Shown: one piece after another, positions 12,024-18,035 of the stretch
Layout of the letters: each line of letters begins with the position of its first letter
Numbering within the stretch: position 1 is the first letter of the stretch
DNA from: Alkalicella caledoniensis
GTDB taxonomy: Bacteria > Bacillota > Proteinivoracia > Proteinivoracales > Proteinivoracaceae
Direction: 5' to 3'
DNA length: 64,000 nt
Assembly: GCF_014467015.1 (NCBI RefSeq)
Contig: NZ_CP058559.1
Location: forward strand, 124,001-188,000
Notes under the pieces: generated by a model
The model's input: only the letters and a program-made list of their open reading frames with translations
Databases searched by the model: none
What the model was told of the DNA's origin: nothing
Position numbers and translations under genes: made by a program

Positions 12024-12800
12024 CTAGTTTTTTTTCTTTAAGTATTCAGCCATGTATTTTTCCCCTTTGACACGAAAACTGTCCCCTGTTATTCTTAAAA
12101 CATGACAATGATGAACTAATCTATCTAGTATTGCAGTAGCCACTAACTGGCCTGTAAATACTTCATACCATTTACTTAGGGAAAGGTTAGTTGTTATGAT
12201 AAGGGAGTTTTTTTCGTATCTTTGCCCGATAACCTGAAAAAAATGCTCTCTTTTTCTTTTTCCATTTTTAAGTACGATAACTCGTCAATAATTAAAGGCT
12301 GGACTTTACTTAAAGCTTTCAATGTCTGCTTTAAAGTATCTTTCTTAACTGCGTCTGATAATTTATCCATAAGTTCTTTTACATTAAAAAACATAACCGA
12401 TTTTCCTGCTCTACATGCATTGATACCTATGCCTGTTGCAATCATACTTTTACCTACGCCTGGAGGACCTATGATAATTATATTTTCATTTCTGTCCATG
12501 AACGATAGTGTCCCAAGCTCTTTAACCTTCTGAAAGTTTATTGTTTCATTAAAACTATATTCTATTTCATCCAAGGTTTTGATGAAATCAAAGCCTGCTT
12601 TGAAGGTAAGCTTCTACGTTAAACGATTTCTTTTTCCTTCTTCCTCGGTTTGAATTAACCTGATGAGGAAATCTTTGTATCCAAGTTTCTCTTTGATGGC
12701 TTCACCGATAATCCTTTGATAGTTTTCTCGGATATCAACTAGTTTAAAGTCCTTTAACTTCTCGTTAATATATGTGTCATCATCAGCGGTATTTTTTTTA
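12024..12800 (-). pseudogene. istB remnant of the decayed IS21 element
   Basis: The Walker A region IIIGPPGVGKSMIATGIG and Walker B region PLIIDELSYL are readable at about 12290-12500. Past the frame break at about 12240 the family C-terminus continues in another frame (SLIITTNLSLSKWYEVF, RLVHHCHVLRITGDSFR) to the stop at 12024. The N-terminal part (DDTYINEKLKDFKLVDIREN) is in yet another frame near 12600-12790. At least two frameshifts make it a pseudogene. Confidence 0.8.
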
Positions 12801-13621
12801 TTATAGTGGAGTTACCTCCTGATCTTCATAGTAGTCGCAACTTCTTGTAATCCCTTCAATTTCAGTTGTTTGGATAGTGGAGGCAACTTGATTTGTAGCT
12901 TCTGACATAATCTTAAAGAAATCACTTTTTATTAGCTTTTTAACCGACTTAATATCAAGAGCATCTTTTTCGATACACAGGCAATTATCTTATCAATAGC
13001 TTCCGCTTTATAAAGCTCTAGTAATTCTAGGATTTTCTTGCATGATAGCTTGGTTGTTGAAGTATGCCATTAGCTGCATCGAAATATGCTTGTCCATACT
13101 TAAAGGTATTAATAAAATCTCTTTTGATTTGTGGAATTGACTTGTTTGCCTTTACGGATATTGCTTCATAATGGGCAGGATCTTTAAATGTTCCGTATTT
13201 TGCCTTTTGCGATTCTAAGGACATAAGATACTCAGAATCTAAGGTGAAAGCTCTATTCTAAACCCGTAAACAATCCTGAACTGAAGCTCTCTTGTAGCAT
13301 ACTTCACTGGTACACTGTACTTGTTTGTGTTTATATGTATGTAGCTATCATTGCTAATGACTCTTTTTCGAAGTTGGCCTAGCCTGAACCTATCTCTAGG
13401 CAATGGGAGGAGACAATTGATTTCCTCATTTTCAAAAAAATAATTTGGAACTCTTCTAGTCGTTGAGTGCAACTTACCATTCCATTGGCTAATAAAGTCT
13501 TTTCCCCTGGCATTTAGCTCTTCCATTGAAGAGAACTTATTACCATTTATGAATTGTTCTTCTATGTATTGGAATGACTTCTCAATCTTACCTTTATTAT
13601 GTCAAGATTAACATAACAAGG

Positions 13622-13649
13622 GTTATGTTAAGACTTTCGTTATGTAAAG
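13622..13649 (+). repeat. left terminal inverted repeat of the RIT element
   Basis: Perfect 28-bp inverted partner of 17044-17071. An additional inverted pair AACATAAC/GTTATGTT lies at 13610-13629, so the end can fold on itself. It is probably a recombinase binding site. Confidence 0.8.
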
Positions 13650-13759
13650 CTGATGAAACTAAAACTCTAAAATACTATGATTGATGCTGATACATCTTTA
13701 CATAATAATTGATTAGAAGTGTTATTTATAAATTAAACATCACAAGGAGGGTTTGATTT

Positions 13760-15013
13760 ATGATAACAGATTTTAAGACATTGATTACTTTGTGTGAAGA
13801 TGAGTTGAACATTCGGCAGTATAATGCTTCATATCAGCGAAGTATCCTAGCGGAGTGGGGGAATCTTACAAAATGGATGACTTTAAACAAGTTTAAGGAT
13901 TTTACCGAGTCTATTGGTTTCCAATACTTAGATGAGACTTTAGGGACCCATATTTCTGTCAAGGGTCTAGCGAACGGTAAAAAGCTACGTTTACGTGCAG
14001 TCCGTATGCTCTCTTCTTATCAAAAGGATGGTGATTTTGAATTCCGTACGCCACGAATTGAGAGAGTTTTTTATGGAGATATAGGCAATGAAATGTTATT
14101 GTATCTATCCTACCTTAGAAGTGAAAAAAATCTTTCTGAGAGTACACTCAAAAATAAGGAACAGTATTTATATGATTTCTTCTGTTATCTAGAAAAAAAA
14201 TCGCTTAAATTGAATAATCTTTCTGTTGAAACAATGGAGGATTTTTTTAGTTCTATGAAATATTCACTCGCATCTAGGCACAACTGCGGTTCAGCGCTAC
14301 GCATTTATTTTAGATATGCATATGAAAATGGAATTTCCAAATCAGACAGTTCGTTGTTAATTTTAAAAGATAATTACAACCATAACTGTAAGCTCCCCAC
14401 AACTTACGAAGAAGACGAAATTCGCACAATCATTTCCTCAGTTGAGCGAACCTCTGCCACTGGGAAAAGGGATTATTTGATTTTGCTCCTTGCCGCTGAA
14501 TATGGATGGCGATCAAATGATATTGTGAACTTTCAGTTTAACCAAATAGACTGGGAGAAAAATATCGTTTGTTTCAACCAACATAAAACTGATATGGCAG
14601 TAGAATATCCTCTACTATCTTCAATTGGTAATGCCATTATTGACTATTTGAAGCACGGTAGGCCGTCAACAGATGTACAGGAAATCATCGTTTCCACAGA
14701 ATCATCAAAAAGGGGTCGGCCACTTTCAACACCGACGATACATTCTATTGTAACGAAGTACATGCGTAAGGCAAACATAAAGAACTGGAAAAACAAGAAA
14801 CACGGTCCACATTCTCTACGCCACAGCCTAGCTACAAACATGCTAAAAAAGAATGTATCTATGCCCATAATCAGTTCCGTGCTTGGACACCAGAATACTG
14901 AAACAACCAAGATATATCTGAAAGTAGATATCGAAAAGTTACGATTATGCCCACTTTCCTTGCCAATAATATCTTCAAAACATTACATGGCAGGGAGGTG
15001 TAAGCATGAGTAG
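13760..15013 (+). CDS. tyrosine recombinase, first of the RIT trio
   Basis: A 417-aa site-specific recombinase. An N-terminal SAM-like DNA-binding domain is followed by a catalytic domain with Arg in AAEYGWRSNDIV, the box HSLRHSLATN, His in SSVLGHQNTETT and Tyr in KIYLKVD, so the R-H-R-H-Y set is present. The start follows AAGGAGG. The stop overlaps the next start, showing co-translation. Trio recombinases act together in RIT transposition by family knowledge. Gene naming as ritA is not certain. Confidence 0.88.
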   Translation: MITDFKTLITLCEDELNIRQYNASYQRSILAEWGNLTKWMTLNKFKDFTESIGFQYLDETLGTHISVKGLANGKKLRLRAVRMLSSYQKDGDFEFRTPRIERVFYGDIGNEMLLYLSYLRSEKNLSESTLKNKEQYLYDFFCYLEKKSLKLNNLSVETMEDFFSSMKYSLASRHNCGSALRIYFRYAYENGISKSDSSLLILKDNYNHNCKLPTTYEEDEIRTIISSVERTSATGKRDYLILLLAAEYGWRSNDIVNFQFNQIDWEKNIVCFNQHKTDMAVEYPLLSSIGNAIIDYLKHGRPSTDVQEIIVSTESSKRGRPLSTPTIHSIVTKYMRKANIKNWKNKKHGPHSLRHSLATNMLKKNVSMPIISSVLGHQNTETTKIYLKVDIEKLRLCPLSLPIISSKHYMAGRCKHE

Positions 15014-15980
15014 ACCAATGTTTAAATCTATTTTTTCTGAGGAAATGTATCATTATTTAGACCATATGGTAGCAACGGGTCATAAAGAAGTAAGTTTTTG
15101 CAAGCATTTACGGCTGTTTGACCGATTTTGTACTGAAAATGAAATACTTCAGCCAGTATTCAATAGTCAACATGCAATGAAATGGATTCAACGGAAAGAA
15201 AACGAAGCTAGTACCACCCATTATTCTCGAATCAATGGAATTAAGCAATTTCTGATCTATCTCTGTCGTAAAGGATATGAAATCTTTGTGACAAGAGATG
15301 TATGTTTCAAGCAAACAGATTTCCAACCATATATTTATGCGGAAGATGAGATAGCAAGATATTTTCATGCAGTTGATACATATGAATCTGCACGTAATCG
15401 TAAGGACAGCATTCAACTACCAATCCTTTTCCGATTACTCTACTGCTGTGGAACTAGAATTAACGAAACGCTTGGTATCAGAAAACAGGATGTGGACCTT
15501 GAGGATGGAATCATTAAGCTATTTGAAACAAAGAACAATAATGAGCGTTATATCGTGTTAAACGAAGAGATGGCCGGTCTTATGTGTCAGTATGCACAAA
15601 AATGTTTTTACCTTTTAGATGAAAAAGACTATATATTTACCAAGTCTAATGGAAGCCGATTAGATGGTGAGGCTCTTTATGAACGTCATAGGCTTTTCCT
15701 TCAAAAAGCAAGAATTCCGTATATTGGTGGAGGAAGAGGTCCAAGACTGCACGACTGGCGTCATACTTTTTCTGTGCAATCATTTAAGCAAATGGTTGAT
15801 TCTGGCCTAGATATGTACGTAGCGCTCCCCATTCTATCCAGTTATCTCGGCCACAAAACAATATATGCTACTGAGAGATATGTTCGACTGACAATGAGTC
15901 TGTATCCGTATATTGAGGATCGTTTTAAAGACAAAGTAAATAAGGTGTTCGGCGAGGTGGACAAACATGAAATCCACTGA
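15006..15980 (+). CDS. tyrosine recombinase, second of the RIT trio
   Basis: A 324-aa integrase with Arg in YCCGTRINETLGI, the box HDWRHTFSVQ, His in SSYLGHKTIYAT and the nucleophile Tyr in ERYVRL. It overlaps the first gene by 8 bp and the third by 14 bp, so the three are probably made from one message. The N-terminal region resembles the core-binding domain of phage-type integrases. Confidence 0.88.
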   Translation: MSRPMFKSIFSEEMYHYLDHMVATGHKEVSFCKHLRLFDRFCTENEILQPVFNSQHAMKWIQRKENEASTTHYSRINGIKQFLIYLCRKGYEIFVTRDVCFKQTDFQPYIYAEDEIARYFHAVDTYESARNRKDSIQLPILFRLLYCCGTRINETLGIRKQDVDLEDGIIKLFETKNNNERYIVLNEEMAGLMCQYAQKCFYLLDEKDYIFTKSNGSRLDGEALYERHRLFLQKARIPYIGGGRGPRLHDWRHTFSVQSFKQMVDSGLDMYVALPILSSYLGHKTIYATERYVRLTMSLYPYIEDRFKDKVNKVFGEVDKHEIH

Positions 15981-16986
15981 TTTTGCAATGTACCTTAACA
16001 AATATTTTACCGTTTACCTTCCAAATGTTAAGGGTATGACACCATTAACAATTGATTCTTACAGATACACTTTTATACTTTTCTTGACGTGCTTGCAGGA
16101 AGAACTTAATATTTCTGCAAACAGAGTACAGATGTCTGACCTTTCGTATAAGAACGTACTTCTATTCCTGGAATGGCTTCAGAAACAACGTCTAAACAGT
16201 ATATCAACAAGGAACCAGAGGCAGGCAGCAATCAATAGTTTTGTAAGGTTTCTAATGTATGAATTTCCTGAGTGTCTAGATAATTATCAACGAATCGTAG
16301 GGATTCCGATAAAAAAAGCACCGCAGAAAGAAATATCCTACATGAAAACAGATGGGGTAAAATTAATGATGTCTCAGATAGATGTCGCTTCTTCTGGAGG
16401 GTTGCGAGATTATGTCATGTTGTCCCTTCTCTATACTACAGGCATGCGTGTCAGCGAACTCATAAGTATCCGGGTAAAAGATTTATCCCTTTATGAACCA
16501 TACACGCTTTTACTTCGCGGTAAAGGGCATAAAAGCCGCTATGTACCACTTATGAAGGATATCATTCCTTTCATCCACCAATATTTAGTACAAGAAGGAT
16601 ATGATAGGCAAGAAAAACTTAGTGAATGGTTGTTTAAGAACCATATGAAAAGCCAATTAACTAGACAGGGTATAAATTACCTTGTCGGTAAATATGCGAA
16701 ACGTGCTAGAGAAATTAATTCGGAGATAATTCCAGCGGATTTTAGTCCTCACAAAATGAGACATACAACGGCTATGGGACTCGTTGATTCTGGGGTTGAC
16801 CTAATTTACATACGGGATTTACTAGGTCATGTCAGTGTTAAAACTACGGAAGTTTACGCAAAAGCAGAAGTAAGCAGAAAGCGTGAAGCTATTGAAGCTG
16901 CTAGCAAGGAGATTGTTCCACCGGAAAAAGCACAATGGGATAACAATACTGATTTAAAACAGTGGCTAAAAACATTCAACCGCTGA
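15967..16986 (+). CDS. tyrosine recombinase, third of the RIT trio
   Basis: A 339-aa XerC/D-like integrase with Arg in LYTTGMRVSELISI, the box HKMRHTTAM, His in RDLLGHVSVKTT and Tyr in EVYAKA. It ends about 60 bp before the right terminal repeat. All three members of the trio keep a full catalytic set, unlike many degraded integrase arrays. Confidence 0.88.
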   Translation: MKSTDFAMYLNKYFTVYLPNVKGMTPLTIDSYRYTFILFLTCLQEELNISANRVQMSDLSYKNVLLFLEWLQKQRLNSISTRNQRQAAINSFVRFLMYEFPECLDNYQRIVGIPIKKAPQKEISYMKTDGVKLMMSQIDVASSGGLRDYVMLSLLYTTGMRVSELISIRVKDLSLYEPYTLLLRGKGHKSRYVPLMKDIIPFIHQYLVQEGYDRQEKLSEWLFKNHMKSQLTRQGINYLVGKYAKRAREINSEIIPADFSPHKMRHTTAMGLVDSGVDLIYIRDLLGHVSVKTTEVYAKAEVSRKREAIEAASKEIVPPEKAQWDNNTDLKQWLKTFNR

Positions 16987-17043
16987 TGATTATGTAAAGA
17001 TATTTGCTTAGGACTTTCGTTACTTTAAGGTCTTTTTTCAAGA

Positions 17044-17071
17044 CTTTACATAACGAAAGTCTTAACATAAC
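17044..17071 (-). repeat. right terminal inverted repeat of the RIT element
   Basis: Perfect inverted partner of 13622-13649. A related imperfect copy (GGACTTTCGTTACTTTAAGG) lies just inside at about 17012-17031. The break with istA coding sequence lies directly after it. Confidence 0.8.
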
Positions 17072-18035
17072 CTTTAGTTCTTGGCCAGTAACAGTTGCAT
17101 GCGTTAAGTTCTGTCCCTAAGTGCTTAGCTAGAAGTAATGCGTATTCATTGTACTTTAATTCAATTTCTTTCCTAGGGTTACTCTCAATTACTAGTGCTT
17201 TAGGATTATCAATAAGAAGTTCCTGTGTAATTCCGCCTAAGTCTTCGAACAGTTCTTGAATGGCTTCATAGATGGCTTCAGCATCAACTGTGAGAGAAAA
17301 GCAAAGAGCCTTTTTTCTGCTAGCTGCTAGAATCATTGAAAAGCAATATACTGTCTCAATCCTATCATTAACATGTATTTTGTATTCAGACCAATCAAAT
17401 TGAGCTTGGTCACCAGGGGATGTTTCTATTCTAACTGTTGTTCTAACTGTTGCTCTCCTGAATACCACACTCTTTACTCCATCAATCTTCTTTAGACCTC
17501 TGTAAATGGGGTTAATTGAGCCATCATAGCCTCTTTGTTTTATTTCCTCAAATATTCTAGTTCCATTGAAGAAGAACTCTGGTGAAGTTCGCCACAAAGT
17601 GATTTCATCCATATGCTTGTCAACCTTCGATGGGTAACTTGCTCTTGTATACTTAGGCTCTTCTTTTAACTTGATTAGCCTTTTAACAGTATAACGAAAT
17701 ATTCCGAGCTGCTTAGAGATTTGTAATTTGGGAACTTTCTGCTTGTGTAGTTCCTGAACTGCTGCCCACTGTTGCAAATTTTTCACGTCATTTTGCCACC
17801 TTCTATGTGTATACTACAAAAGAATGGTAGCTTATTTTGTAAAAGTGGTCAATTTTAAACGTAAAAAATTATTAGGATGCTTTCAACGAGTATATTAATT
17901 ACCCTTGCTAGTGGGTCATTTTTACTCGTTAATTAGTGGTCACTTTTAATTGTAAATCAATAATTGTTTCCTTCTTCGATTTAAATTGTTAAAGTGCGTA
18001 AAATAACTAAAGGAATTCTCAGAATGTATCGAGTC

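Follow-up and report, generated by a model that had tools for sequence, protein, structure and literature searches.

What does a recombinase in trio (RIT) element recognise when it lands inside a transposase gene, and what do its ends retain of the event? The question is raised by a stretch of 64,000 nucleotides from Alkalicella caledoniensis (contig NZ_CP058559.1, positions 124,001 to 188,000; hereafter the window, in whose coordinates the local features are given), where an intact RIT, a member of an already known kind of element and here called c1, is nested in the istA gene of an insertion sequence (IS) of the IS21 family. The answer proposed, with a probability of about 0.8, is that the RIT integrates site-specifically into codons of enzymes encoded by other mobile elements, this lineage probably using the catalytic-Glu motif K-G-[KRN]-[VI]-E of DDE transposases, and that 6-bp spacers would be passed on through a circular form. 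Movement of the element is inferred from sequence patterns.

Four copies of the RIT (c1 to c4) are found on the single 3.70-Mb contig, with 0 differences over 3,448 bp. The hosts of c1 and c2 are two IS21s that are 89% identical to each other, c3 sits in a different IS21 with an open istB, and c4 interrupts an IS481-like transposase gene (133.7 bits, below the cut-off of 224 of that model) followed by an AAA_22 ATPase. All four junctions fall within K-G-[KR]-[IV]-E codons of DDE transposases, namely three istA genes and the IS481-like gene. This motif holds the third catalytic residue (Glu) of DDE transposases, and the preliminary description of the locus had missed both that it is the insertion site and that three further copies share it. 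Identical RITs in diverged or unrelated hosts point to recent, separate insertions, and mobility is implied by the four identical copies at different loci. The earlier proposal that the RIT is the younger layer is supported by this lack of differences between bodies whose IS21 hosts have diverged (c1 and c2), as well as by the state of c1 itself, in which istA and istB of the host are broken and the RIT genes are open.

The disrupted gene can indeed be rebuilt, as had been supposed. The N-terminal part of the host istA occupies 17077-17786 on the minus strand, with a GTG start at 17786, and its C-terminal part, which begins with KIEK, occupies 13239-13590 on the same strand, its frame breaking near 13240-13260. 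When the flanks are joined computationally, istA is restored across PRT^KGKIEK, in agreement with a split between the codons for TKG and KIEK, and the rebuilt IstA scores 206.8 bits on NF033546 (transpos_IS21, cut-off 160), whereas its N-terminal piece by itself reaches 152.6. With an IstA above the NCBIfam cut-off and istB downstream, albeit as a broken fragment (12194-12574, minus strand; IstB_IS21, 4.9e-32 over 126 aa), the host is an IS21. The rebuilt istA of c2 is a 508-codon frame without a stop (222.3 bits on the IS21 transposase model). An uninterrupted relative at odds with the rebuilt junction had been named earlier as what would refute this reading, and the comparison does not refute it: an uninterrupted IstA from another genome of the phylum, about 52% identical to the rebuilt c2 protein across 491 aa, aligns without a break over the junction (CYWPRKKGKIERPF in the relative, CYWPRTKGKIEKPF in the rebuilt protein). 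The frame of the N-terminal part enters the right repeat and stops after YVKTFVM, and the inverted repeat (17046-17076, and the equivalent place in c2 to c4) gives every split transposase this in-frame tail and stop, so that the split transposases end as truncated proteins without the catalytic Glu.

The ends of c1 are more elaborate than first described. The 28-bp inverted repeat GTTATGTTAAGACTTTCGTTATGTAAAG, at 13622-13649 and 17044-17071, is perfect as reported; it does not form the true termini, since the left end has 26 more bases, a 20-bp palindrome and a 6-bp spacer, which the right end is without. Comparison of the four copies identifies these bases as a movable palindromic module (P) lying between 6-bp spacers (N6). 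The borders previously placed at 13597-17076 are retained and comprise P (20 bp), one N6 (6 bp), the body (3,448 bp) and a second N6 (6 bp). Read from the left, c1 consists of the P-side spacer CCTTTA (13591-13596), which the four-copy comparison and the N6 rule in relatives suggest to be circle-borne; P itself (TTATGTCAAGATTAACATAA, 13597-13616), a near-palindrome of two half-sites back to back; the inner spacer CAAGGG (13617-13622), identical to the spacer at the P-less end of c4 and different from the TAAAGG of c2 and c3; the left inverted repeat (13623-13649, plus strand), with half-sites at 13623-13632 (TTATGTTAAG) and 13640-13649 (TTATGTAAAG), 17 bp apart; the right inverted repeat (17044-17070, minus strand), with half-sites at 17061-17070 and 17044-17053; and the P-less-end spacer CCTTTA (17071-17076), probably the target's own. 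ACCTTTA is thus present at both junctions, as noted before (13590-13596 and 17070-17076). Copies c1 to c3 share the layout flank-CCTTTA-TTATGTCAAGATTAACATAA-N6-TTATGTTAAG, and c4 carries the identical 20-bp module on its other end, with flank spacers unlike each other (CAAGGG and TAAAGG).

This organization extends to other RITs. The inverted repeat is made of two direct half-sites, with 8.5/10 identity at an offset of 17 (n = 90 RITs) against 2.2-3.9 at other offsets. Of 82 fully flanked RIT loci from many phyla, 79-85% show the layout of P, N6 and inverted repeat at scores that 1.2% of shuffled flanks, run as a control, reach. Three loci (L081, L140 and L160) carry P on both ends and are possibly hybrid or tandem states. 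Both flanks of L081 resemble one and the same 3' half of an IS66 transposase. L071 and L163, one element present in two collections, have a right P adjoining an apparent repeat of another RIT and a left flank with a phage portal-like frame, recognised by eye.

RIT trios used for comparison were gathered from the same phylum, from plasmids and from 80 loci of a genome collection, the first two sets being nearly all in A-B-C order; a scan of genome contigs with RitB alone gave no matches, and an alignment query recovered the loci. Target counts include one-sided loci and depend in part on the reading of frames. The longest-frame rule chose the wrong frame for L058, L068, L186 and L190, which were reassigned from other frames, and loci with hybrid or double-P junctions (L071/L163, L081, L085, L140) were left out. 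In the main, the rebuilt targets are codons for active sites in enzymes of mobile elements. The most frequent rebuilt target is the DDE Glu motif (24 loci, the four own copies included), followed by the Walker A motif of IstB (12 loci) and the PQG^G motif of group II intron reverse transcriptases (five loci). Other catalytic motifs are Walker B of IstB (two loci), the first Asp of IS3 (two), the second Asp of IstA (one), the vicinity of the Glu of IS66 (two), the Y-R-E motif of IS4 (two), and the catalytic Tyr or HxxR of tyrosine recombinases (four, the Tyr assignment of L105 being by eye alone). RadC is split at HxH in two loci and an amidoligase at SCG^IHxH in three, and single or paired targets include RhuM, ORF6N, DruA, a resolvase and a YspA-like protein. 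Conserved motifs of such non-mobility genes (amidoligase, RadC, RhuM, ORF6N, YspA-like, DruA) are hit in L067, L068, L135, L139, L182, L158, L160, L178, L143 and L108. In sampled loci, Pfam domains are continuous across the rebuilt junction; the target of the Cupriavidus necator pHG1 RIT (L053) has no Pfam match and was assigned from an LGH/TTERYL-like motif alone. The earlier remark that RIT insertion sites are rarely so clear does not hold, as dozens of relatives rebuild just as cleanly.

Target choice appears to be transmitted with the recombinases. On a RitB tree obtained by a quick search (58 tips), 16 target classes need 17 changes, against 33-40 with shuffled labels, and members of the Glu-motif class come from Bacillota, Pseudomonadota, Bacteroidota and Planctomycetota. 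As target class follows the RitB tree, target choice behaves as an inherited property of the RIT and not as a property of the host species.

The insertions are also polar. P lies 3' of the motif in all 24 Glu-motif and all 12 Walker A insertions, and 5' of it in 5/5 reverse transcriptase insertions, the orientation of ritABC being variable (13 to 11 in the Glu class). A fixed P side combined with a variable orientation is compatible with a joint that is symmetric and an overlap of 6 bp that has a direction. Unequal flank spacers are seen in 28 of the 63 strict two-sided relatives, and where they are unequal, the inner spacer is closer to the P-side one in 17 cases and to the other in 6, with 5 ties; exact matches are 10 to 1. 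In L069 and L084, the Walker A motif is restored only by the spacer of the P-less end. Spacer mismatches concentrate at N6 positions 1 and 4 (29/45, p = 2e-5), which fall on the third base of a codon in 39 of 47 rebuilt targets, as expected if the elements move between homologous genes with synonymous differences. In c1, the inner spacer CAAGGG and the P-side spacer CCTTTA are, under the spacer rule proposed below, those that a c4-derived circle would leave by using its other core site, and c1 looks like a daughter of c4.

These patterns suggest a route by which the element would travel as a circle closed by the joint IR_R-N6-P-N6-IR_L, where IR_R and IR_L are the right and left inverted repeats. 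The simplest source of the copies would be IR_R-CCTTTA-P-TAAAGG-IR_L, with two inverted core sites; written in letters, the joint would be ...CTTAACATAA-CCTTTA-TTATGTCAAGATTAACATAA-(TAAAGG or CAAGGG)-TTATGTTAAG... Either core site could recombine with the 6 bp of the target, so that the element could face both ways with P staying on a fixed side of the target. The 6 bp of the target would remain at the P-less end, the 6 bp of the circle would go beside P, and the target 6 bp would be captured when the element next circularises, the spacers thus recording earlier hosts. Most speculatively, RitA, with its two core-binding domains, might read the tandem half-sites, with RitB and RitC acting at P and at the target. 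The putative targeting of active-site codons via a two-core circle joint is well supported by the four copies and about a hundred relatives.

The circle could arise without excision. Copy-out movement leaving no empty donor site, as in strand-biased circularizing integrative elements (SEs), would be a variant of the proposed route rather than a contradiction of it; it is a serious possibility, held somewhat less likely than not. The spacer carried by c1 is still present in c4, and the 6-bp capture rule is the same as that reported for SEs (PMC10214605, PMC9345347). Excision from just one of two sister chromosomes would, however, produce this trace as well.

Several observations weigh against a site-specific choice of mobile-element enzymes as formulated above. 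The motif pattern NAARGGNAARRTNGAR occurs at nine sites of the genome, of which three are transposase sites holding a RIT and six, in ordinary genes or short frames, are perfect and empty, meaning that the 6 bp and the P-side motif are not sufficient; recognition may extend over more of the transposase sequence, or insertions at other places may be lost. Not every target is a mobility enzyme, the exceptions being amidoligase, RadC, RhuM and YspA-like. In L065, the consensus motif is given by the P-side spacer and not by the other. Beyond N6, the P-side flank is weakly similar to the half-site (3.83/10 against 2.98 for random sequence), and the other flank shows no similarity. Finally, class labels come partly from frame reading, and the loci are not a random sample. 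The idea of a target built as a dimeric half-site was rejected on account of these same flanks.

The empty sites also bear on a reading without any choice of motif, according to which insertion would be wider and the survivors would be those in dispensable genes. The dispensability of mobile-element genes to the host and the empty state of the six sites in ordinary genes or short frames speak for it. It leaves unexplained the constant codon within the gene, the fixed side of P and the target class tracking the RitB tree, and is considered improbable as a full account; survival bias may nevertheless act on top of a true site preference.

Slightly less plausible still is the view that c1 and c2 stem from one insertion event, either by duplication of a RIT-bearing IS21 or by spread of the RIT between IS21s through homologous recombination. 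Both hosts are IS21s split at the same codon, but their sequences differ by 11% right up to the border of the element, with identical RITs inside, their inner spacers are unlike (CAAGGG in c1, TAAAGG in c2), and c3 and c4 lie in other genes altogether. Ordinary transposition to near-random sites, with ACCTTTA as a 7-bp target-site duplication, would account for the 7-bp direct repeat that does flank c1 but is held very improbable and was rejected, given the unequal flank spacers of c4 and many relatives. All four copies, moreover, lie at one motif in three kinds of host gene, and tyrosine recombinases do not make staggered-gap duplications.

Insertion at active-site codons suggests a parasitic life for RITs, site-specific and at the expense of other mobile DNA. 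A wider proposal, favoured by a narrow balance, is that all RITs live as hyperparasites on mobile DNA, with every lineage dedicated to a single active-site motif (the DDE Glu or Asp, Walker A or B of IstB, the reverse transcriptase of group II introns, recombinase Tyr or HxxR), tolerant at wobble positions and carrying 6-bp tags of previous hosts. In that case they would be counterparts of homing elements built on tyrosine recombinases, and would disarm other transposons. Should the rule hold, RITs would act widely in nature to hold back IS elements, group II introns and integrases, and would also supply recombinases whose specificity has evolved towards conserved coding motifs. With a concrete joint for the circle, a 6-bp site of exchange and a target codon all given by the layout, integration can be put to a direct test with synthetic sites.

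Descriptions of RIT trios go back more than ten years, and c1 has their expected gene content. Between its repeats lie only ritA (13760-15013, 417 aa), ritB (15006-15980, 324 aa) and ritC (15967-16986, 339 aa), all open and on the plus strand, with overlaps of 8 and 14 bp; the SE genes tfp and srap are not among them, and the absence from these genes of an endonuclease gene in a self-splicing intron or intein sets c1 apart from homing elements. Each product matches the Phage_integrase and Xer models in family profile searches, and the full catalytic sets announced in the preliminary description were recovered: R251/K276/H351/R354/H377/Y386 in RitA, R151/K176/H249/R252/H283/Y292 in RitB, and those of RitC, read directly from its sequence. 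RitB has 30.5% identity over 97% (E 8e-37) to its counterpart in the pHG1 RIT, which RitA and RitC also match in the same gene order. In the AlphaFold model of RitA (mean pLDDT 85), two predicted four-helix bundles (helices 5-90 and 106-189) precede the catalytic domain, and the model matches structures of XerA, XerH, lambda Int and Cre. The two bundles agree with the double core-binding domain reported for RitA (PMC8138268).

RITs of Cupriavidus metallidurans CH34 and C. necator pHG1 were described by Van Houdt 2012 (PMC3414803), a study that left open the end structure, the insertion sites and the need for three recombinases, and that reported one insertion in a Tn6049-type transposase gene and one in radC. 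The element of the window resembles these RITs in its ritA-ritB-ritC order with short overlaps, its size of about 3.5 kb, its RH-Y catalytic motifs, and variable ends with a 28-29 bp inverted repeat and an overlapping palindrome, c1 having a 3,448-bp body and 28-bp repeats; it differs in the extent of the overlaps (8 and 14 bp against 4-8). The target rule, the 6-bp spacers, the two-core joint and the 17-bp half-site period are not stated in the RIT literature searched, which did not cover Ricker et al. 2013.

Other systems share some of these features. SEs also rely on tyrosine recombinases and imperfect inverted repeats, and their 6-bp spacer is taken over from one end and left behind at the other (PMC10214605, PMC9345347); a comparable exchange is read here from sequence only. 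SEs have intA, tfp, intB and srap instead of a RIT trio, and the passages on them that were consulted describe no palindrome P. Tn554, whose target is radC, encodes TnpA, TnpB and TnpC with a long TnpB and has no RIT trio. Like RITs, it combines several tyrosine recombinases with a specific target, and a 6-bp footprint is reported for it (PMC10214605). GInts (PMC5385486) also group several tyrosine-recombinase genes but consist of four genes, ginA-D, in large islands with cargo. Wobble-position tolerance in a conserved coding target is known for homing endonucleases such as I-AniI (PMC3943268), a resemblance in targeting only, as these elements use other enzymes and another pathway and usually reside in self-splicing introns or inteins, leaving the host gene unharmed, whereas the RIT breaks it.

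The IS21 hosting c2 (L019:7726-9849) is decayed too, its istB stopping early (188 aa) beside a separate 486-aa transposase open reading frame. Copies c3 and c4 (L018, G000:C1:96000-115000) are separated by 2.3 kb and occupy neighbouring transposons that differ from each other, near a 609-aa open reading frame for a group II intron-type reverse transcriptase/maturase, in a local cluster of nested mobile elements.

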